Shown: piece after piece, positions 1,092-31,135 of the stretch
Position numbering within the stretch: position 1 is the first letter of the stretch
Layout: every line of letters begins with the position of its first letter
Source: Arcobacter defluvii
Lineage (GTDB): Bacteria; Campylobacterota; Campylobacteria; Campylobacterales; Arcobacteraceae
NCBI RefSeq assembly: GCF_013201725.1
Contig: NZ_CP053835.1
Location: 1,302,001-1,366,000 of the forward strand
Direction: 5' to 3'
DNA: 64,000 nucleotides
Made by a program: the position numbers and the translations under genes
The notes under the pieces: generated by a model
What the model saw: only the letters and a program-made list of their open reading frames with translations
Told to the model about the DNA's origin: nothing
Database searches by the model: none

Positions 1092-1487
1092 ATGATTTTT
1101 CCAAAAGATATAACTAAACAGAGTGCTAAAAAATATTTAGAAATAAGAAATAAAGATTTTATAGCAATGTTTGTATCAGGTTCAAACTTACATCCAAATC
1201 CTAAATTATATAAATATTATTGGTGGATATATGCAATTGATTCTAAAGAAGATAATGCAGAAAAAGTTTTTTATCAAGATAAATATAGATTAACAACTAA
1301 AGAGTTCATGGATGAATATGAAAGATTAAATAAAGAAAAAATATCATTTGCTTATGTAAATGTAAAATATCATAGATTGGGTGCTTCATTTAATTATGAT
1401 AAATTAAAACAATTAAATCCAGATATTGAATTTGCACCAAAATTTGATGATGATAATGATGAGATAAGCAAGGATGGGCATAAATGA
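1092..1487 (+). CDS. Hypothetical protein (131 aa)
   Basis: ATG 1092 follows AAAAGGA at good spacing. The protein is aromatic-rich in the first half (KYYWWIYAID) and acidic at the C-terminus (KFDDDNDE). Its stop overlaps the next start in an ATGA arrangement, which implies translational coupling to the cyclic-phosphate receiver-domain gene. Family not recognised. Confidence 0.6.
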   Translation: MIFPKDITKQSAKKYLEIRNKDFIAMFVSGSNLHPNPKLYKYYWWIYAIDSKEDNAEKVFYQDKYRLTTKEFMDEYERLNKEKISFAYVNVKYHRLGASFNYDKLKQLNPDIEFAPKFDDDNDEISKDGHK

Positions 1488-21400: not shown

Positions 21401-21759
21401 TAAGAAGTCATGTTCAAAATAGAAATAAAAATGATACACAAATAGATATATTTAATAATGACTTGATTGAAATATATGTTATTAAATCTAAAAAAATTGA
21501 ATATAAAGCTATAGGAGTATTAAAGGGATTTACAGAAAGTAAAGGTGGAAGAGCAAATTTAAGAAATCCAAAATATCCACTTCTAAAAGACAAACAACCT
21601 AAATTATTTCAAGGAGAATTTTCTATAGGTTCAACTTGCGGTATCAAAAAATACAAAACTGATGCAAGTGGTAGAGTTCTTGGATTTTATTATTTAGGTA
21701 GAGTTTTAGAAGGTGATAAAGAAGTGTTTTCAAAAGTAGTGACATATAGGAAGATGTGA
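18424..21759 (+). CDS. cas9: Cas9 nuclease, type II-C
   Basis: 1111 aa RNA-guided DNA endonuclease. RuvC-I ILSLDLGVTSCGFSVLD places the catalytic Asp at D8. RuvC-II IKLESTREL gives E522, and RuvC-III HHAEDA gives H747 and D750. The HNH domain EIEHIVPRECGG has H607, with N621 and N630 at the spacing known for active Cas9, so both nuclease sites look intact. An arginine-rich bridge helix begins near residue 58 (QRKLKDKKKQRVKDLK). Size and the absence of csn2 or cas4 point to II-C. The last codons overlap cas1 by TGATG. The C-terminal PAM-interacting region is not assignable by eye. Confidence 0.95.
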   Translation: MNRILSLDLGVTSCGFSVLDEVETNQYSLIDYGVVMRDNPNEGGTQSDWKAYIQQRKLKDKKKQRVKDLKDIFKSFNLNFVEKNYSNLWELRAKDSFERKLQIDELFAIFRYLAKHRGYKSLKMEDLIAEIESQEKIGNCESDDVIEPNSEEFTETLAYLDALKCKFKEKTVAQIIYDIESQKENPNFRNHNNYKYMIRREDTKDEIEKIVEAQKLFGFFKDEKEAENFKNSIIDEIIPQDPVLLNPNLINNCLIYKEEKSAPIYSYSFDIFNFYKHINDLKIGNKNATNEQKEILTNDFELKLKELKNISSYTIKGIKELLDIKDDIKISGLRETKIVKGKSVDNYLVKFNFLAHWAKFDKEIVVALKDKINYFDKIATIFHININPNALIEGFSKYFKENNLFFEEEKIKNFALSLYKNKVKGTSAYSFKALNDLIVHMKDGKNESDAKEILGVSKSEDYSSFEKSIKYLKPIDKNGTLRYEIDENSISNHVVKSLISWACRIIIDLHEKYGSFDMIKLESTRELSQPDEKKREIKSANDRIQKEWEDLKDRYKSHFEALGLNMGNNKEYLLKIKLWEQQGEIGIYSGQSLGIVDILSDKTEIEHIVPRECGGANAEYNKAIDTKNENAIKARRLPLDYLVEEKREVFLQNIDELKNSKKINFKKWLNLKAQTLDETFKEVKDDVSMHATSYTEKLLGEILKRYYPFTDKQKENQKVMHISGRATSYLRKILSIENKSRGTNFHHAEDAILIACMSKSYLQNISTNFEKNYELTRENAKDNFKKIVPFINGANPNEIFSYLQKSYTQDIEENPFYTNVIDNTLRIPAFWVSKKPIGTKAHNETIQSKKNLAYRVNIDSLLERVKPNHKMSAESFFEQYNKEILEKIQVFKDNPKDFTAQAFIKKRDNIIQLLQEANFITSKDEKADIDKKLRDEMKKPIEDVNGNTIRRVKRVGEDATIEVRNGLAYTAPSLVCLRCSFDEPKLQLQRIDIRSHVQNRNKNDTQIDIFNNDLIEIYVIKSKKIEYKAIGVLKGFTESKGGRANLRNPKYPLLKDKQPKLFQGEFSIGSTCGIKKYKTDASGRVLGFYYLGRVLEGDKEVFSKVVTYRKM

Positions 21760-22682
21760 TGGGTTTTCAATCTTTATTTATAACAAATCCTTGTAAAATA
21801 AGTATCAAAGATGATAACCTAGTGATAAGTAATGACGATGGACATTTTAAAGTTATATTGGATAACTTAGTCTCAATCGTTATTGAAACTACACAAGCTA
21901 CTATTACCACTTATGCTATCTCAAGATTAGCTGAGGAGGGTGTAAGTATTTTATATGTGGATAAAAAATATAATTTAAATGCTATAACCCTACCTTTTCA
22001 TACTCATTCAACTTTTTCAAAGATAGTACACTCTCAAATAGATATCTCAAAACCTTTTCAAAAGAAACTTTGGCAAGAACTGATAAAACAAAAAATTTAT
22101 AATCAAGCGAGTGTATTGGAGTATTTTAAAAAAGAAAAAGAAGCAAATGAACTTTATACTTATATTGACTATGTAAAATCAGGCGATAGTGACAATGTTG
22201 AAGCAAAAGCTGCAAAGGTGTATTGGAGCAGTTTATTTGATAATTTTGTAAGGATTCAAAAAGGAGCAGAAGATGTGCGAAATGCATCTTTAAACTACTG
22301 TTATGCCGTGGTAAGAAGTGCGGTTGCTAGATCTATTACAAATGCAGGGCTTATGCCATCATTTGGAGTACACCATAAAAACTACTTTAATCCCTTTAAT
22401 CTTGCAGATGATTTAATAGAGCCTTTTCGTCCTTTTGTTGATTTGCATATAAAACAAACCCTTATAAAATATAATGAGCCAGTTTTAATCTCTGCAATGA
22501 AACCTGAATATGTAAATATATTAAACCTTGAATATGTCAATATACAAAACAATATAAGTGCTGTAAGAGTTGCTATAGATACAGTTGTGCAATTGGTACA
22601 AAAATCAATTTTACAAAAAGATATAAGCTTTTTGGTTTTACCAAAAATTGATTTTCAAAGATATGAAGATGAGTGCGTATAG
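21759..22682 (+). CDS. cas1: Cas1 integrase
   Basis: Spacer-acquisition endonuclease. The C-terminal helical domain contains the conserved PSFGVHHKNYFNPFNLADDL and IEPFRPFVD, with histidine and aspartate ligands of the metal site. ATG 21759, overlapping the cas9 stop by one base (TGATG), is preferred to the GTG at 21756. It overlaps cas2 by 14 bases. 307 aa is normal for type II Cas1. Confidence 0.95.
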   Translation: MGFQSLFITNPCKISIKDDNLVISNDDGHFKVILDNLVSIVIETTQATITTYAISRLAEEGVSILYVDKKYNLNAITLPFHTHSTFSKIVHSQIDISKPFQKKLWQELIKQKIYNQASVLEYFKKEKEANELYTYIDYVKSGDSDNVEAKAAKVYWSSLFDNFVRIQKGAEDVRNASLNYCYAVVRSAVARSITNAGLMPSFGVHHKNYFNPFNLADDLIEPFRPFVDLHIKQTLIKYNEPVLISAMKPEYVNILNLEYVNIQNNISAVRVAIDTVVQLVQKSILQKDISFLVLPKIDFQRYEDECV

Positions 22683-23001
22683 ATTTATGTGGTTGATGAT
22701 AATGTTTGATATGCCTACAGATACTAAAAAGGCAAAGAAAAAATATAGATATCTTAGAACAAAACTTTTAAAAGAGGGATATATTATGATGCAGTTTTCT
22801 ATTTATATTCGCTCATTTCACTCTTATGAATCAGCACTCAATGGGAAAAAGAAAATAAAAGATTTTATAGCATCTAATACTGTTAAAGGGAAGATAAGAA
22901 TTATAGTATTTACTGATAAACAGTTTGCAAATATGGATATAATAGTTGGTACAAAAAGTGAAGAAGAAAAAAATGCGCCAAAACAGCTATTGCTGTTTTG
23001 A
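22669..23001 (+). CDS. cas2: Cas2
   Basis: Partner of Cas1 in spacer integration. The strand MWLMIMFDMPTDT near the N-terminus carries the usual Asp. ATG 22669 (MSAYRF) is the best fit; ATG 22663 is possible. It lies 14 bases inside cas1. Its last 35 bases are also the terminator of the tracrRNA, read on the other strand, so sense and antisense transcripts overlap here. Confidence 0.92.
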   Translation: MSAYRFMWLMIMFDMPTDTKKAKKKYRYLRTKLLKEGYIMMQFSIYIRSFHSYESALNGKKKIKDFIASNTVKGKIRIIVFTDKQFANMDIIVGTKSEEEKNAPKQLLLF

Positions 23002-23089
23002 CCATTCAAAATCTCCTTTGAAAAATCAAAGGATTATTTTAAGTCCCCATAAGAAACTTTTAGTTTCACAAACCCCTTTGTGATAAAAC
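22967..23089 (-). ncRNA. tracrRNA
   Basis: Predicted about 123 nt. The distal anti-repeat (23068-23088) pairs perfectly over 21 bases with the repeat. A 19-base insert follows that folds as GAAAC-TAAAA-GTTTC (23053-23067). The proximal anti-repeat (23036-23048) reads GGGGACTTAAAAT and pairs with the first 13 bases of the repeat, with one A-A mismatch and one G-U. Downstream are a CCTTTG/CAAAGG hairpin (23013-23032) and a terminator (GTCAAAACAGC/GCTGTTTTGGC, 22977-23002, then T7 at 22967-22973). Consensus promoter upstream. Strand is fixed by pairing with crRNA read on the minus strand. Confidence 0.85.
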
Positions 23090-23095
23090 TTCTAA

Positions 23096-23125
23096 ATATT
23101 AGCTAAAAAAAGCTCAAATTGTCAA
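23096..23125 (-). promoter_or_regulatory. tracrRNA promoter
   Basis: On the minus strand, TTGACA (23120-23125), an 18-base spacer and TAATAT (23096-23101) predict a start at about 23089-23090, exactly where the anti-repeat begins. Confidence 0.8.
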
Positions 23126-23182
23126 TATTTTTTTAACTAAAACTAGGTAAAAGCCTATGAATAAGGCTATCTCAAGACACCC

Positions 23183-24933
23183 ATTTTATCACAAAGGGGT
23201 TTGTAGGGGTCTTAAAACTCTGTTACTATATCAGTTACATCTGTATCTATTTTATCACAAAGGGGTTTGTAGGGGTCTTAAAACCTAAAAGTCTTTGTGC
23301 AACACTTGTCATTTATTTTATCACAAAGGGGTTTGTAGGGGTCTTAAAACGCTTTAATAGTTATGTCTCCAACTGCATCAATTTTATCACAAAGGGGTTT
23401 GTAGGGGTCTTAAAACATATAACCAATAAGCACAATTCTCTTTTTTATTTTATCACAAAGGGGTTTGTAGGGGTCTTAAAACAAAACTGGTACAAGTTCA
23501 ATTGAAGATACAATTTTATCACAAAGGGGTTTGTAGGGGTCTTAAAACCGAACAAAAGTAGTCGGGGTGAGTGTATTTATTTTATCACAAAGGGGTTTGT
23601 AGGGGTCTTAAAACCAAGCATTCTTTATTATTTCTAACGGTGAAATTTTATCACAAAGGGGTTTGTAGGGGTCTTAAAACTGTAAACAGGTGACAAATAT
23701 CTATAAGCTCATTTTATCACAAAGGGGTTTGTAGGGGTCTTAAAACATGAGTTCAATAGAAAAAGTTAAGTTTTCAATTTTATCACAAAGGGGTTTGTAG
23801 GGGTCTTAAAACTTAGATTTATTATCTTATCTTGGTGTTATTATTTTATCACAAAGGGGTTTGTAGGGGTCTTAAAACTAAGTTCGTATTGTCAAATGAG
23901 GGAAAATTATTTTATCACAAAGGGGTTTGTAGGGGTCTTAAAACAAGGAACTACTACAAGAGCAAAGAAAAGAGATTTTATCACAAAGGGGTTTGTAGGG
24001 GTCTTAAAACTAACAAAGCCCTGTAGTTCCTGCAACTAACATTTTATCACAAAGGGGTTTGTAGGGGTCTTAAAACTAATATCTTGTTCTAGAGCTTTAA
24101 CCTGTTATTTTATCACAAAGGGGTTTGTAGGGGTCTTAAAACCCACCTTTTGAAAGTGGAACTTTAGGATATATTTTATCACAAAGGGGTTTGTAGGGGT
24201 CTTAAAACACTAAGTTATCAGCATAAGAGTAGTAGTTAATTTTATCACAAAGGGGTTTGTAGGGGTCTTAAAACTGACTCTTGTAATGATTCTAATTTAA
24301 CTTATTTTATCACAAAGGGGTTTGTAGGGGTCTTAAAACACTTTTGATGGGAATGCGAGTACAGTTTCTATTTTATCACAAAGGGGTTTGTAGGGGTCTT
24401 AAAACTACTCATAAGTTCTTAAAATATTCCATTACATTTTATCACAAAGGGGTTTGTAGGGGTCTTAAAACAAAGCCCAAGTTCTTTAAGTCCTTTTGAA
24501 TATTTTATCACAAAGGGGTTTGTAGGGGTCTTAAAACACTGTTTTGATATTTGTTCCACTTACTAATATTTTATCACAAAGGGGTTTGTAGGGGTCTTAA
24601 AACACTGTTTTGATATTTGTTCCACTTACTAATATTTTATCACAAAGGGGTTTGTAGGGGTCTTAAAACAAAGTCATTGGATTTGTATTCTTTTGCATTA
24701 TTTTATCACAAAGGGGTTTGTAGAGGTCTTAAAACACAAGTGCACTTGCACTCATCCACTCCGTTATTTTATCACAAAGGGGTTTGTAGGGGTCTTAAAA
24801 CTACTCATAAGTTCTTAAAATATTCCATTACATTTTATCACAAAGGGGTTTGTAGGGGTCTTAAAACGAGTTGGTGCGGGAGTATTTGATAGATTAGATT
24901 TTATCACAAAGGGGTTTGTAGGGGTCTTAAAAT
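23183..24933 (-). CRISPR. Type II-C CRISPR array, 27 repeats and 26 spacers
   Basis: Repeats are 36 bp with a period of 66; spacers are 30 bp except the 17th (24275-24303, 29 bp). In crRNA sense (minus strand) the repeat begins GTTTTAAGACCCC and ends TTTGTGATAAAAT, like the Campylobacter jejuni repeat. Its end contains TG-A-TAAAAT, an extended -10 in every repeat. The repeat at 24700 has one internal change and the last repeat (24898-24933) ends AAAAT on the plus strand, marking the old end. Spacers at 24406 and 24802 are identical, as are those at 24538 and 24604. Confidence 0.97.
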
Positions 24934-26861: not shown

Positions 26862-27146
26862 TTAGAATCTATCTTTTAGATTCTTATAAATTTTATCTTT
26901 TTCCCTTTTTCCAACACTCAATACTAAAACAACAATTTCTTCATCTTTAACTTGATAAGCAAGTCTATATCCAGCAGTTTTTAGTTTTATTTTATAAACA
27001 TTTTCATATCCACTTAGTTTATCTTTTTCTACTTTTGGATTTTCTAGTCTTTCTTCTAATTTCTTTTTAAATTGTTCTTTTATTGTTGAGCCTAATTTAG
27101 TCCACTCTTTTAAAGCTTGAGGTTTAAATTCAAGATTATAAGTCAT
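26862..27146 (-). CDS. RelE/StbE-family toxin
   Basis: 94 aa with the RelE fold pattern: LEFKPQALKEWTKLG, then LKTAGYRLAYQV and VVLVLSVGKREKDKIY. Members cut mRNA on the ribosome. The gene overlaps its antitoxin by 11 bases and reads from the same promoter. Confidence 0.88.
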   Translation of the reverse strand: MTYNLEFKPQALKEWTKLGSTIKEQFKKKLEERLENPKVEKDKLSGYENVYKIKLKTAGYRLAYQVKDEEIVVLVLSVGKREKDKIYKNLKDRF

Positions 27147-27387
27147 CTAAACTTACTTTAACTGGTTTTTCACCATCATTTAAAGCTTTTCCAACTTCTA
27201 ATGACAAATGATAATCATCTATAATATCCATCATTTTTTCATAAAGTTTACTTGGAACTAAATAAGCACTAGGGATATTATGATTTAATATTGCTATAAC
27301 TTCATTATCTGCTTCATTTAGTAATTGTGTAGGAGATTTTTTAAGTTCTGTTATACTTGCACTATAATTTGCTAAAATTGGTTGCAT
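27136..27387 (-). CDS. Phd/StbD-like antitoxin
   Basis: 83 aa. The N-terminus (ASITELKKSPTQLLNEADNE, then IPSAYLVPSKLYEKMMD) is the Phd/YefM-type DNA-binding fold as found in StbD. The tail would wrap the toxin. AAGGA precedes ATG 27387. The operator at 27417-27432 fits autoregulation. Confidence 0.85.
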   Translation of the reverse strand: MQPILANYSASITELKKSPTQLLNEADNEVIAILNHNIPSAYLVPSKLYEKMMDIIDDYHLSLEVGKALNDGEKPVKVSLDDL

Positions 27388-27410: not shown

Positions 27411-27758
27411 AATATTATACTAAATATAGTATCTTTCTGTCAATATACTCAACAAACAATAGGACAAGCAAAAACAAAAAAAGCCATAAATGAAACAATA
27501 TCTTTCATATGTGAAAAAGAAAATATAAATTTTAATTGGATACAAACAGGTAAAGGTGAAATATTTATTGATGAAAGTAATTCACATTTTCTTCAAAATG
27601 AAGAAAATATTTATATAAATAAATCATTTCAAGAAGAAATAATAAATGATATTCAAAAACTTTCTTCAAAACGACAAGAATATTATTATCAACAAATAAA
27701 GGCAGATGTATTAAAAGAAGAGTTAGAAAACAAGTATAATATAAGTGATGATAAATGA
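27411..27758 (+). pseudogene. Remnant of a CI-type phage repressor
   Basis: A plus-strand frame without ATG runs from 27411 to the TGA at 27756-27758. The part from QYTQQTIGQAKTKKAIN to FNWIQTGKGEIF matches the second half of the CI-repressor helix-turn-helix domain of Campylobacterota prophages, followed by an acidic helical tail. The N-terminal half is replaced by the toxin-antitoxin promoter, so the gene is truncated. Confidence 0.6.
27414..27443 (-). promoter_or_regulatory. Toxin-antitoxin promoter with operator
   Basis: On the minus strand TTGACA (27438-27443), an 18-base spacer and TATAAT (27414-27419). A perfect palindrome ATACTA-N4-TAGTAT (27417-27432) sits between the boxes, as expected for an autorepressed antitoxin. 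Confidence 0.75.
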
Positions 27759-27809: not shown

Positions 27810-27932
27810 TTGACACAATATTAATTATGTGATAGAATCTCTCTATGAAACAAAGGTTTCCTTTTTTCAGGAGTGATGACTTGAATAGAGAGAATCATAA
27901 GTGGGTAGAGCCTAACAGCTTTACCTTTTTTT
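27810..27932 (+). ncRNA. Candidate small RNA, copy 1 (promoter, core, terminator)
   Basis: Promoter TTGACA (27810-27815), 17 bases, TAGAAT (27833-27838); predicted RNA from about 27845 to 27932. The core hairpin TTCAGG-N8-CTTGAA (27866-27885) is followed by a terminator GGTAGAGC/GCTTTACC (27904-27925) and seven T. The 49 bases 27852-27900 match copy 2 (28687-28735) at 44 positions. A 31-codon frame (27845-27940) overlaps it, but copy 2 lacks a start codon for it. Confidence 0.65.
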
Positions 27933-27956
27933 ATACTTAGAATTTGATATAAAATA

Positions 27957-28193
27957 TTGACCTGGTACAATTACAATCTAAGTTATTTTAAAGTTCTATT
28001 AGAAAGATTTAAGCTAGAAAGAGTTAATATTCTTTATTAAGATAAAAGAAGATGTACTTTCAATAAAGCTAAAAGGTTTTATTGAGAGTACCCACTTCTC
28101 ACAAAACCATCGGAATGAACGACTTGTATCGTTTTTGGGATGAAAACTCTCGATAACCGTAAAATGTGGCAGTTTTTGGTCTGCTACTTTTTT
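27957..28193 (+). ncRNA. Hairpin-rich region ending in a strong terminator
   Basis: A 14-bp stem pairs 28054-28067 with 28078-28091 (one G-U). Shorter stems follow: GAGAGT/ACTCTC (28084-28089 with 28145-28150, competing with the first) and AACGA/TCGTT (28118-28133 region). GTGGCAG/CTGCTAC (28166-28187) and a T run end it on the plus strand. A weak -35-like TTGACC (27957) is upstream. The plus-strand terminator has no plus-strand gene before it, so a non-coding RNA is the simplest reading; exact 5' end unknown. Confidence 0.45.
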
Positions 28194-28578
28194 ATTGTCT
28201 AAAAAGTGTTTTAAAAGATAATATTTTAGATTTAATAACTCTTAAAGCTACCATTCTAACTACTCCATCATCAAACTTTTTTCTGAATACTAAACTAACA
28301 TCAGTTTGTCCAGTTTGAGTATTTCTTGTTAGGCTCTTTTCAATACTACTAAAACTATTCAATATTTCAGGAATTTTGCTCAAGTAATATAAGTCTTCTT
28401 CATGTTTATTTTTTACATGTCTTATATACTCTTCTTGAATTATAAATTTATATGTACAAATATCAAGTTTTGTATGTTTTTTTATAGACTTACAAGCTTC
28501 TTCTTTAATTTTTAACTCAAAAATTTCTGTTGTGGTATTACTTGTAAGAGCAAAATCTATAAATTCATTGAGATTCAA
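28192..28578 (-). CDS. PBECR-like endoribonuclease-fold protein
   Basis: 128 aa. The pattern LDICTYKFIIQEEYIRHVKNKH followed by DLYYLSKIPEILNSF and a C-terminal strand region (DVSLVFRKKFDDGVVRMVALRV) resembles the phage Barnase-EndoU-ColicinE5/D-RelE (PBECR) families, which occur as toxin domains in phages and Campylobacterota islands. The conserved His in the RHVKNKH segment is present. It lies between the two small-RNA copies. Assignment by pattern only. Confidence 0.45.
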   Translation of the reverse strand: MNLNEFIDFALTSNTTTEIFELKIKEEACKSIKKHTKLDICTYKFIIQEEYIRHVKNKHEEDLYYLSKIPEILNSFSSIEKSLTRNTQTGQTDVSLVFRKKFDDGVVRMVALRVIKSKILSFKTLFRQ

Positions 28579-28686
28579 AACATTTCCTAATTTTTAATTT
28601 GTAGAATACTAACTTAATAATTTTTAATTTTTTCTTTCCAGTTCGTATTGAAAATTTAAAAATTGGGTACGATTCTTCTCCGAAGT

Positions 28687-28769
28687 AAAGGTTTCCTTTT
28701 TTCAGGAGGAATGACCTGAATAGAGGTAATCATAAAAAGGTGTAGTTTTATAGCTTTAGCTCTTTTTTT
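28687..28769 (+). ncRNA. Candidate small RNA, copy 2
   Basis: 44 of 49 bases match copy 1. The core hairpin is TTCAGG-N8-CCTGAA (28701-28720): the U of copy 1 is C here, turning a G-U into a G-C pair, so the structure is kept. It ends with seven T (28763-28769), but the terminator stem is weak. A poor promoter (TTGAAA 28648-28653, GATTCT 28671-28676) is upstream. Probably a diverged paralogue. Confidence 0.55.
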
Positions 28770-28871
28770 AGTAAGATAGTTGATATTTCATCAATGAGAG
28801 GCAGGGGAGTGCTAAAAATATAAATTCAATACTTATCACTTTATACGTAGCTACTTAAGTTAATTATGTCT

Positions 28872-29912: not shown

Positions 29913-30995
29913 TTATTTTAAAGTATCAAAAACTTTTTTAATTCCTTGTGCTGCAACTTTTTGTTGAACTTTTGCATATCTTCTTGTGGGTCTTGTAGAA
30001 CTGTGTCCTAATATAGCTGCTACAACTTCCATACTATTATCTGTGTTATTTAAAGATATTTCTCCAATTAAATGTCTTAAATCATGTATTCTCATACTTT
30101 TATTAATATTTGCTTCTTTAAGTATTCTATCCCAAGCCCATCTAAGATTTTTTATTTTTGCACCTGTTACTAAAGATTTAAATACATATCCATCTTTATC
30201 TTCTATATTTATAAAGATATTATAGAGCTCATCAGTCATTTCATAACTCATATTCTTTTTTGCTTTGTTTATTTCATATTTAATAGTATAAGTTCTTTTT
30301 TCAAAATCTATCATATCCCAAGTTAAATTTAAAACTTCTCCAGTTCTTCTTCCATGTAATAAAAAAGTAAATATGTCTTTATATAAAGGTTCTTTAAAAT
30401 TTATTATTGTATTGAATAATCTTTTTGATTCTACAAAATCTAAAGGATATTCTCTTGTATTATCATATTTTGGTTTATCAACTAAAATTACAGGATTATT
30501 TGTTGTAATCTTGTGTTTAATCGCAAATTTGAAAAGAGCTGATAAATCTGCAAGATAATTATCAACACTTTTGGGAGATTTTGTTTTTAATAGATCATTT
30601 GCAAATTGTTGTATATTATATGTTTGAATAGTATTTATTTTTAAATTGTCAAATTTTGTTTTGAAATGACAATTATATACACTCTTTTTATTGATCAATG
30701 TTTTTTGAGATACAGATTTAGAATTAATTAGATGTTCTAAGTACAGTTCCCATAGCTGCTTAAATGTTAAATCTTTTTTTATGTAAGTGTTATTTTCAAT
30801 CTCATTTTTCATCGATTCTTTTTTTAAAAAAGCAATTTTTGCATTTGTTTTAAATTCATCATTTTCATAACCAATTATTTTTCTATATTTCTTTTTATTG
30901 ATTGTAAATGTTGCTAAAAATACTTTACCTTTTTGACTATCACTATAGTAACTTATTCCAGGATAATTAGTCTTTGTTGTTTTTGGTATTGCCAA
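29913..30995 (-). CDS. Tyrosine recombinase, island B integrase
   Basis: 360 aa. Arginine in LLHGRRTGEVLNLTW, His-x2-Arg in IHDLRHLIGEIS, and LGHSSTRPTRRYAK with the Tyr nucleophile. N-terminal Arm-type strand region (YYSDSQKGKVFLATFTINKKKYRKIIGY). All catalytic residues are present. It is only distantly like the island A enzyme, yet sits in the same position relative to its attachment site (141 bases), so two different integrases use one target. Confidence 0.92.
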   Translation of the reverse strand: MAIPKTTKTNYPGISYYSDSQKGKVFLATFTINKKKYRKIIGYENDEFKTNAKIAFLKKESMKNEIENNTYIKKDLTFKQLWELYLEHLINSKSVSQKTLINKKSVYNCHFKTKFDNLKINTIQTYNIQQFANDLLKTKSPKSVDNYLADLSALFKFAIKHKITTNNPVILVDKPKYDNTREYPLDFVESKRLFNTIINFKEPLYKDIFTFLLHGRRTGEVLNLTWDMIDFEKRTYTIKYEINKAKKNMSYEMTDELYNIFINIEDKDGYVFKSLVTGAKIKNLRWAWDRILKEANINKSMRIHDLRHLIGEISLNNTDNSMEVVAAILGHSSTRPTRRYAKVQQKVAAQGIKKVFDTLK

Positions 30996-31135
30996 AGGTG
31001 TCCTTTTAGGTGTCTTTTTTAAATGTAAATTAATGTAAATTTATAAGTTGTATATTATAGTATATGAACTTATAAATACCATAAAATAGGCTTTTTTAGT
31101 AAGAATTGGAAGTTTATGTAAATATAATACATAAA

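Follow-up and report, generated by a model that had tools for sequence, protein, structure and literature searches.

Two leader RNAs at the locus

The stretch of DNA analysed here (the window) comprises 64,000 nucleotides of Arcobacter defluvii (assembly GCF_013201725.1, contig NZ_CP053835.1, positions 1,302,001 to 1,366,000 of the forward strand) and contains two copies of a small RNA element, which flank a PBECR-type nuclease gene. An initial annotation had described them as a structured non-coding RNA of no known family. Reading of the sequence confirmed the positions of both copies, the consensus promoter (TTGACA-17-TAGAAT) and terminator (a hairpin followed by seven T residues) of copy 1, and the match of copy 2 (28680-28769) at 44 of 49 core bases. 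The resemblance of the pair far exceeds chance: a BLAST search of the whole genome with copy 1 returned four copies, namely itself (E 1e-46), copy 2 (E 7e-15; 2.4e-4 with the R2 model) and two others (E 1e-29 each), with relatives in other genomes. The two others, L002 and L003, at 1,270,606 (+) and 1,833,459 (−), are distant and identical. These loci and their relatives extend beyond the terminator into a G-rich linker, a ribosome-binding site (RBS), a 20-codon open reading frame (ORF) for a putative toxin and a 3′ hairpin. On the best reading of the sequence, copies 1 and 2 are leaders that lack their toxin part and lie on an integrative element. Their features are as follows.

27452..27757, plus strand: 5′-truncated remnant of a helix–turn–helix (HTH) regulator gene that precedes L002 and L003, from alignment with L003
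27810..27838, plus strand: promoter of copy 1, with −35 TTGACA at 27810-27815, a 17-nt spacer and −10 TAGAAT at 27833-27838, read from the sequence and placed as in full-length family members, where the promoter is near consensus
27845..27866, plus strand: anti-RBS segment of copy 1, ATGAAACAAAGGTTTCCTTTTT, the first ~22 nt of the RNA, identical to the L003 segment
27867..27884, plus strand: hairpin K of copy 1, TCAGG-AGTGATGA-CTTGA, assigned from covariation between its loop and the 3′ loop across the family
27885..27896, plus strand: segment S1 of copy 1 (ATAGAGAGAATC), whose partner S1′ is GATTCTCTC, 5′ of the toxin RBS; assigned from S1–S1′ covariation
27904..27932, plus strand: intrinsic terminator of copy 1, with the hairpin at 27904-27925 and T7 at 27926-27932, read from the sequence; homology to L003 ends here
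28668..28769, plus strand: copy 2, a decayed leader with a −10-like TACGAT, an anti-RBS segment, a hairpin K with a changed loop and a weak terminator
28770..28813, plus strand: remnant of the linker that normally runs from terminator to toxin RBS, without the toxin ORF, from alignment to full-length locus L030

Copy 1 is well preserved. Its leader is identical to that of L003 at 80 of 88 positions, and the differences are confined to a stem position where G-U is tolerated, the spacer and the terminator loop; the 5′ segment is the same, and the K loop and S1 are intact. The adjoining HTH stretch aligns with 90 identities, 19 mismatches and 8 gap positions. Since this truncated gene is homologous and the integrase near copy 1 is almost identical to that beside L003, the two appear to sit on the same kind of integrative element. 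Copy 2 retains a 44-nt piece of L030-type linker and no toxin. It is evidently decaying, with promoter, K loop and terminator all impaired: the −10 is degraded to TACGAT, the K loop reads AGGAATGA instead of AGTGATGA, and the terminator hairpin reaches −4.4 kcal/mol.

Two structural proposals of the initial annotation did not survive comparison with the family. The G-U/G-C difference between the copies had been taken for a compensatory change; it is one-sided, G-C being the family state and the U of copy 1 derived, and true compensatory changes are found elsewhere in the family. The bases of the proposed outer stem of copy 1 (CTCTCTAT/ATAGAGAG) lie mostly 5′ of the expected RNA start, and family-wide ATAGAGAGAATC pairs instead with the downstream segment adjoining the toxin RBS. 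Because single-copy folding of copies 1 and 2 is unremarkable (z −1.8 and −0.7), the case for structure rests on comparison and not on energy. The view of a non-coding RNA without a known family was upheld: Rfam gave no window match at the gathering threshold and none to the leader RNA in ten loci (E up to 1). A 31-codon frame was considered as coding and rejected, as it is not conserved and is open through the terminator in only 3 of 43 leaders that have a start-like codon near +1.

Architecture and distribution of full-length loci

We parsed 51 full-length loci, 25 in the family and 26 more, most of the latter from covariance-model searches of the family and the order; together they span many genera of the order. 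The elements follow one another as promoter, 5′ segment of ~20 nt, hairpin K, S1, terminator, linker with S1′, RBS and ORF, 3′ hairpin and tail. The promoter is near TTGACA-17-TATAAT in nearly all family loci, and a hairpin with a run of 7-10 T residues separates leader from ORF in 51/51. This terminator hairpin has a mean energy of −13.2 kcal/mol, against −4.2 for shuffled sequence, and its stem covaries. The leader RNA, counted from its expected first base through the T-run, measures 81-100 nt (mean 89). The 5′ segment is barely conserved (pairwise identity 0.53 versus 0.45 when shuffled), yet it is still complementary to its own RBS and start. The linker holds GGGTGGG-like motifs and S1′, and the 3′ hairpin is of the type GGGGGAATTAATCACTCCCC. 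A conserved G-rich stretch, GCTGGGTGG / GGGTGGGAG, lies between terminator and RBS in all full-length loci (for example after the T-run of L003) and could pair with the 3′ arm of the 3′ hairpin. At L045 (G021:C13) and L076 (G125:C64), leader-like units stand directly 5′ of the full-length locus, giving the order leader-terminator-leader-terminator-toxin.

The ORF is exactly 20 codons long in 43 of the 51 loci. Its peptide is built from I, L, V, F, M and A (mean hydropathy 2.1), with K or R near position 4 and a K/R-x-Y end. Difference rates at the three codon positions are 0.46, 0.20 and 0.53, so that the second is the most constrained. A standard start is present in 48/51 loci (ATG 23, TTG 20, GTG 5). 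L018 and L068 have none, and L030 has an in-frame ACG; because of these starts a few toxins may be dead. Six peptides tested against Pfam matched no family, Hok/Gef included, although peptides this short may escape the models; a Conotoxin hit was weak (E 0.11) and was dismissed as chance. The small size and hydrophobicity of this membrane-type peptide, together with its elaborate repression, suggest that it is a toxin.

Among 399 genomes of the order, 32 matched a covariance model of the toxin half (R1); they belong to 15 of the 87 genera. Matches to R2 at about 40-50 bits were left uncounted, being mostly ordinary terminators. Matches to the 3′-hairpin pattern are labelled Arcobacter caeni, Arcobacter sp. 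and Aliarcobacter. A search of plasmid and phage records with one full-length query returned nothing, nor was the 3′ hairpin motif found in viral contigs. The literature on type I systems in Arcobacter and Sulfurimonas, with subscription journals thinly covered, yielded no description of the family. The locus family is previously undescribed and widespread, and adds an RNA/peptide family to a whole bacterial order.

Leader and toxin segments covary

For every locus, the pairing energy of each segment with its own partner was compared with the energies obtained with the partners from all other loci. The 5′ segment paired with its own RBS/start at −19.50 kcal/mol on average, compared with −7.95 when partners were swapped, and the own partner was the best in 39 of 51 loci. 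Own pairings were likewise stronger for K and the 3′ hairpin (−14.31 versus −10.39), for S1 and S1′ (−10.25 versus −5.54) and for the tail and the start of the ORF (−11.49 versus −6.42). In none of the four segment pairs did any of 10,000 permutations match the real pairing. The permutations ignore relatedness; relatedness alone, however, would not make a locus's own partner beat that of a close relative. In almost every locus the bases of the 5′ segment line up, in antiparallel orientation, with the RBS and first codons. In 48/51 loci at least 6 nt of the K loop and 3′ loop remain complementary, although the loop sequence has changed many times (GATGA, GATTA, GACTA, GATAA, GGTTA, AACTA, GGCTA and GACCA); in copy 1 the K loop is complementary to TCATCACT in the 3′ hairpin of the toxin mRNA.

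Loci that share a genome are orthogonal, with cross pairings averaging −7.1 kcal/mol against −19.8 for own pairings. This does not decide between action in cis and in trans, since the orthogonality is no stronger than for random pairs (−7.8). At G009:C54, L014 and L009 are tandem toxin loci that share the RBS region, and the L009 leader fits both: the L014 leader pairs with its own RBS at −5.5 kcal/mol and the neighbouring L009 leader pairs with the L014 RBS at −17.3. The misfit at L014 provides one hint of action in trans; the two loci look as if a leader had been exchanged.

Leaders without a toxin

Every toxin half for which upstream DNA was read has a leader, and leaders without a toxin recur (L010, L098, L104, L106, L118 and others; besides the window copies, they occur in G021, G054, G075, G103, G100, G004 and G026). 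Copy 1, L098, L104 and L118 keep promoter and terminator and stop at the latter; the remaining ones fade in the linker. Small RNAs found as orphans in genomes of this kind may in fact be leaders that lack a toxin. The anti-RBS segment of copy 1 forms a duplex of −24.9 kcal/mol with the L003 toxin RBS/start, and the modelled pairing indicates that copy 1 should bind the L002/L003 toxin mRNA; the corresponding value for copy 2 is −19.1.

A leader that may act as antitoxin

Taken together, the comparisons suggest that the terminated leader of ~90 nt is the antitoxin of a type I-like locus and acts by base pairing, a reading to which we assign a probability of roughly 0.6. Among the functions initially suggested, that of an antitoxin RNA was the best guess; the partner was misjudged, as the 5′ end fits the toxin RBS of its own family. 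One sigma-70 promoter would give rise to a leader RNA ending at the intrinsic terminator, and read-through from the same promoter to an mRNA of ~260 nt that adds the RBS, the hydrophobic peptide and the 3′ hairpin. The first ~20 nt of the leader would pair with the Shine-Dalgarno sequence and start of the toxin, the loop of its hairpin would kiss that of the 3′ hairpin, and the 3′ tail would pair with the first codons. Within the long RNA such pairings would block its translation in cis. In trans, the short leader, presumably abundant, would form the same pairings on toxin mRNA that had lost its 5′ part, probably by processing. In the model, the long RNA has an RBS accessibility of 0.26; removal of all sequence up to the T-run raises it to 0.42, and supplying the short leader to this truncated RNA brings it to 0.25. 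As the modelled RBS opens on 5′ truncation and closes with the leader, the leader could repress in both ways. Copy 1 may still be able to silence the toxin encoded by L002 and L003.

The conserved terminator behind the leader argues for a separate short RNA, and the leader is also the only complementary RNA that is evidently encoded. In a scan with a family-trained model, minus-strand promoters appeared in 3 of 50 loci, compared with 2.6 expected from shuffles, and no position stood out; the forward promoter passed the same scan in 38/50. Several points weigh against the leader as a trans-acting antitoxin. The scan would overlook minus-strand promoters whose motifs are weak or not of the sigma-70 type. 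For half of the toxin-less leaders, no toxin RBS sampled in the same genome matches, so some of them are relics. The toxin mRNA includes the leader, and pairing in cis alone could explain all the covariation.

This last point leads to a serious, if unlikely, alternative, in which the leader is simply a 5′ untranslated region, premature termination and self-folding keep the peptide off, the ~90-nt RNA is a by-product and toxin-less copies are relics. It accommodates the finding that all pairings can form in one RNA, nested except for the kissing loops, and the visible decay of copy 2 and of the second L114 leader. A strong terminator in all 51 loci is nevertheless hard to explain if the short RNA is useless. 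The toxin-less leaders that retain both promoter and terminator also speak against this alternative, as does the confinement of the differences between copy 1 and L003 to the G-U-tolerated stem position, the spacer and the terminator loop. A classical type I arrangement of the hok/Sok or aapA/IsoA kind, with an undetected antisense antitoxin on the opposite strand, would share the hallmarks of aapA and hok mRNAs, namely RBS sequestration, long-distance pairing between 5′ and 3′ ends and a small hydrophobic peptide (PMC6733600, PMC8322730). We consider it quite improbable, given that minus-strand promoters occur at chance level. Moreover, neither hok/Sok nor aapA/IsoA is known to have a conserved terminator between leader and toxin.

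It was also proposed that the RNA regulates, or is antitoxin for, the PBECR and GNAT neighbours. Physical closeness speaks for such a role, as does a duplex of −17.6 kcal/mol between the copy 1 leader and the RBS (AAAAGGACACCTTTGG, 30995-31020) of the adjacent integrase gene (29913-30995, minus strand), which is below all 283 background starts. The integrase match is lost in relatives (L049 leader −7.1; L019's own integrase −7.7), and leaders elsewhere adjoin other genes, the relatives that were read lacking any PBECR/GNAT association. The 5′ end of copy 1 pairs weakly with the starts of PBECR (−9.7), GNAT (−4.0) and the GNAT partner (−9.4), far from its value with the toxin RBS and no better than the range for other genes. 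This proposal is in our view very improbable.

Returning to the leader as antitoxin, we propose more tentatively, at a little under even odds, that the architecture is new in that the early-terminated leader of a toxin's own mRNA serves as trans-acting antitoxin and solitary leaders such as copy 1 serve as anti-addiction RNAs. If so, solitary leaders would protect against incoming or resident toxins. Specificity would be held by ~20 freely varying, co-evolving nucleotides, and predictions of cross-protection could be tested with few substitutions.

A second conserved RNA and other neighbours

A second conserved RNA, in which ACCATCGGA, CCGTA and AGTTTTTGGTC are invariant and the terminal hairpin covaries, lies at 28082-28189 (+). 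It differs from the leader family and is end-to-end and convergent with the PBECR3 gene (28192-28578, minus strand). The same RNA stands beside a PBECR-type gene in L127, L135, L136, L137, L138, L140 and L141, and in L164, L166, L167, L174 and L176 of a Pfam-driven set; it is convergent with stand-alone PBECR3 nuclease genes at about a dozen loci in several families of the order. Promoter-like sequence precedes it in several relatives, and Rfam gave no match to it. L134 and L139 carry it with no PBECR gene next to it, possibly as a further solitary antitoxin RNA. We regard it as a candidate RNA partner or antitoxin of the PBECR nuclease; if either RNA of the interval partners this nuclease, it is the one at 28082-28189. 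At L141 a Flavo-1 RNA match (RF01705, 49.8 bits, above gathering; 1278-1344, plus strand) lies just 5′ of the PBECR-linked RNA.

Beside copy 1 there is a Phd/YefM antitoxin and ParE toxin pair (26862-27387, minus strand), which with the GNAT module, PBECR and the leaders forms a dense cluster of conflict genes. Upstream of the leaders, window positions 21756-24933 hold cas1- and cas2-like genes and an array of clustered regularly interspaced short palindromic repeats (CRISPR; 66-bp period, about 26 units). A trans-activating CRISPR RNA of this array was considered for the copies and discarded, as no anti-repeat was seen in them, judged by eye only.

Comparison with known systems

Type III systems (ToxIN, CptIN) are ordered promoter, antitoxin RNA, terminator and toxin, with the toxin expressed by read-through. 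The same order on one strand is found here, with a hairpin and T-run between leader and ORF in 51/51 loci. The type III toxin, however, is an endoribonuclease and not a 20-residue hydrophobic peptide, and its antitoxin is a tandem-repeat, protein-binding RNA, whereas here a single leader would pair with mRNA. In hok/Sok of plasmid R1, a single toxin mRNA has its 5′ end, RBS and 3′ end paired with one another, as predicted for the present loci. These differ from hok/Sok in having no conserved overlapping upstream frame, no detected antisense RNA and no Hok/Gef Pfam match. In timP/TimR (PMC11228461) alternative folds and a pseudoknot likewise control a type I toxin mRNA. There the small RNA, TimR, is separate, whereas leader and toxin here share promoter and strand.

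A close parallel in the same bacterial class is aapA/IsoA of Helicobacter pylori (PMC6733600, PMC8322730), which also has a short hydrophobic peptide and whose mRNA has a sequestered RBS and pairing ends, as the covarying K–3′ hairpin and tail–ORF start pairings predict for the present loci. IsoA is transcribed as an antisense RNA of the opposite strand, in contrast to the terminated sense leader found here, for which no antisense promoter was detected. The aapA peptide has 30 residues compared with 20, a separation based on published descriptions and not on sequence comparison. Overall, the loci share with type I systems the small hydrophobic peptide and an RNA complementary to the toxin mRNA; an antitoxin from its own antisense or separate gene was not seen, minus-strand promoters being no more frequent than expected. 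Since there is neither an opposite-strand antisense RNA nor a type III toxin or repeat RNA, we file the family separately, as a variant of RNA-antitoxin systems with type I-like pairing and type III gene order. It would bridge type I and type III, illustrating how one promoter on a single strand could supply both a toxin and the RNA that counters it.
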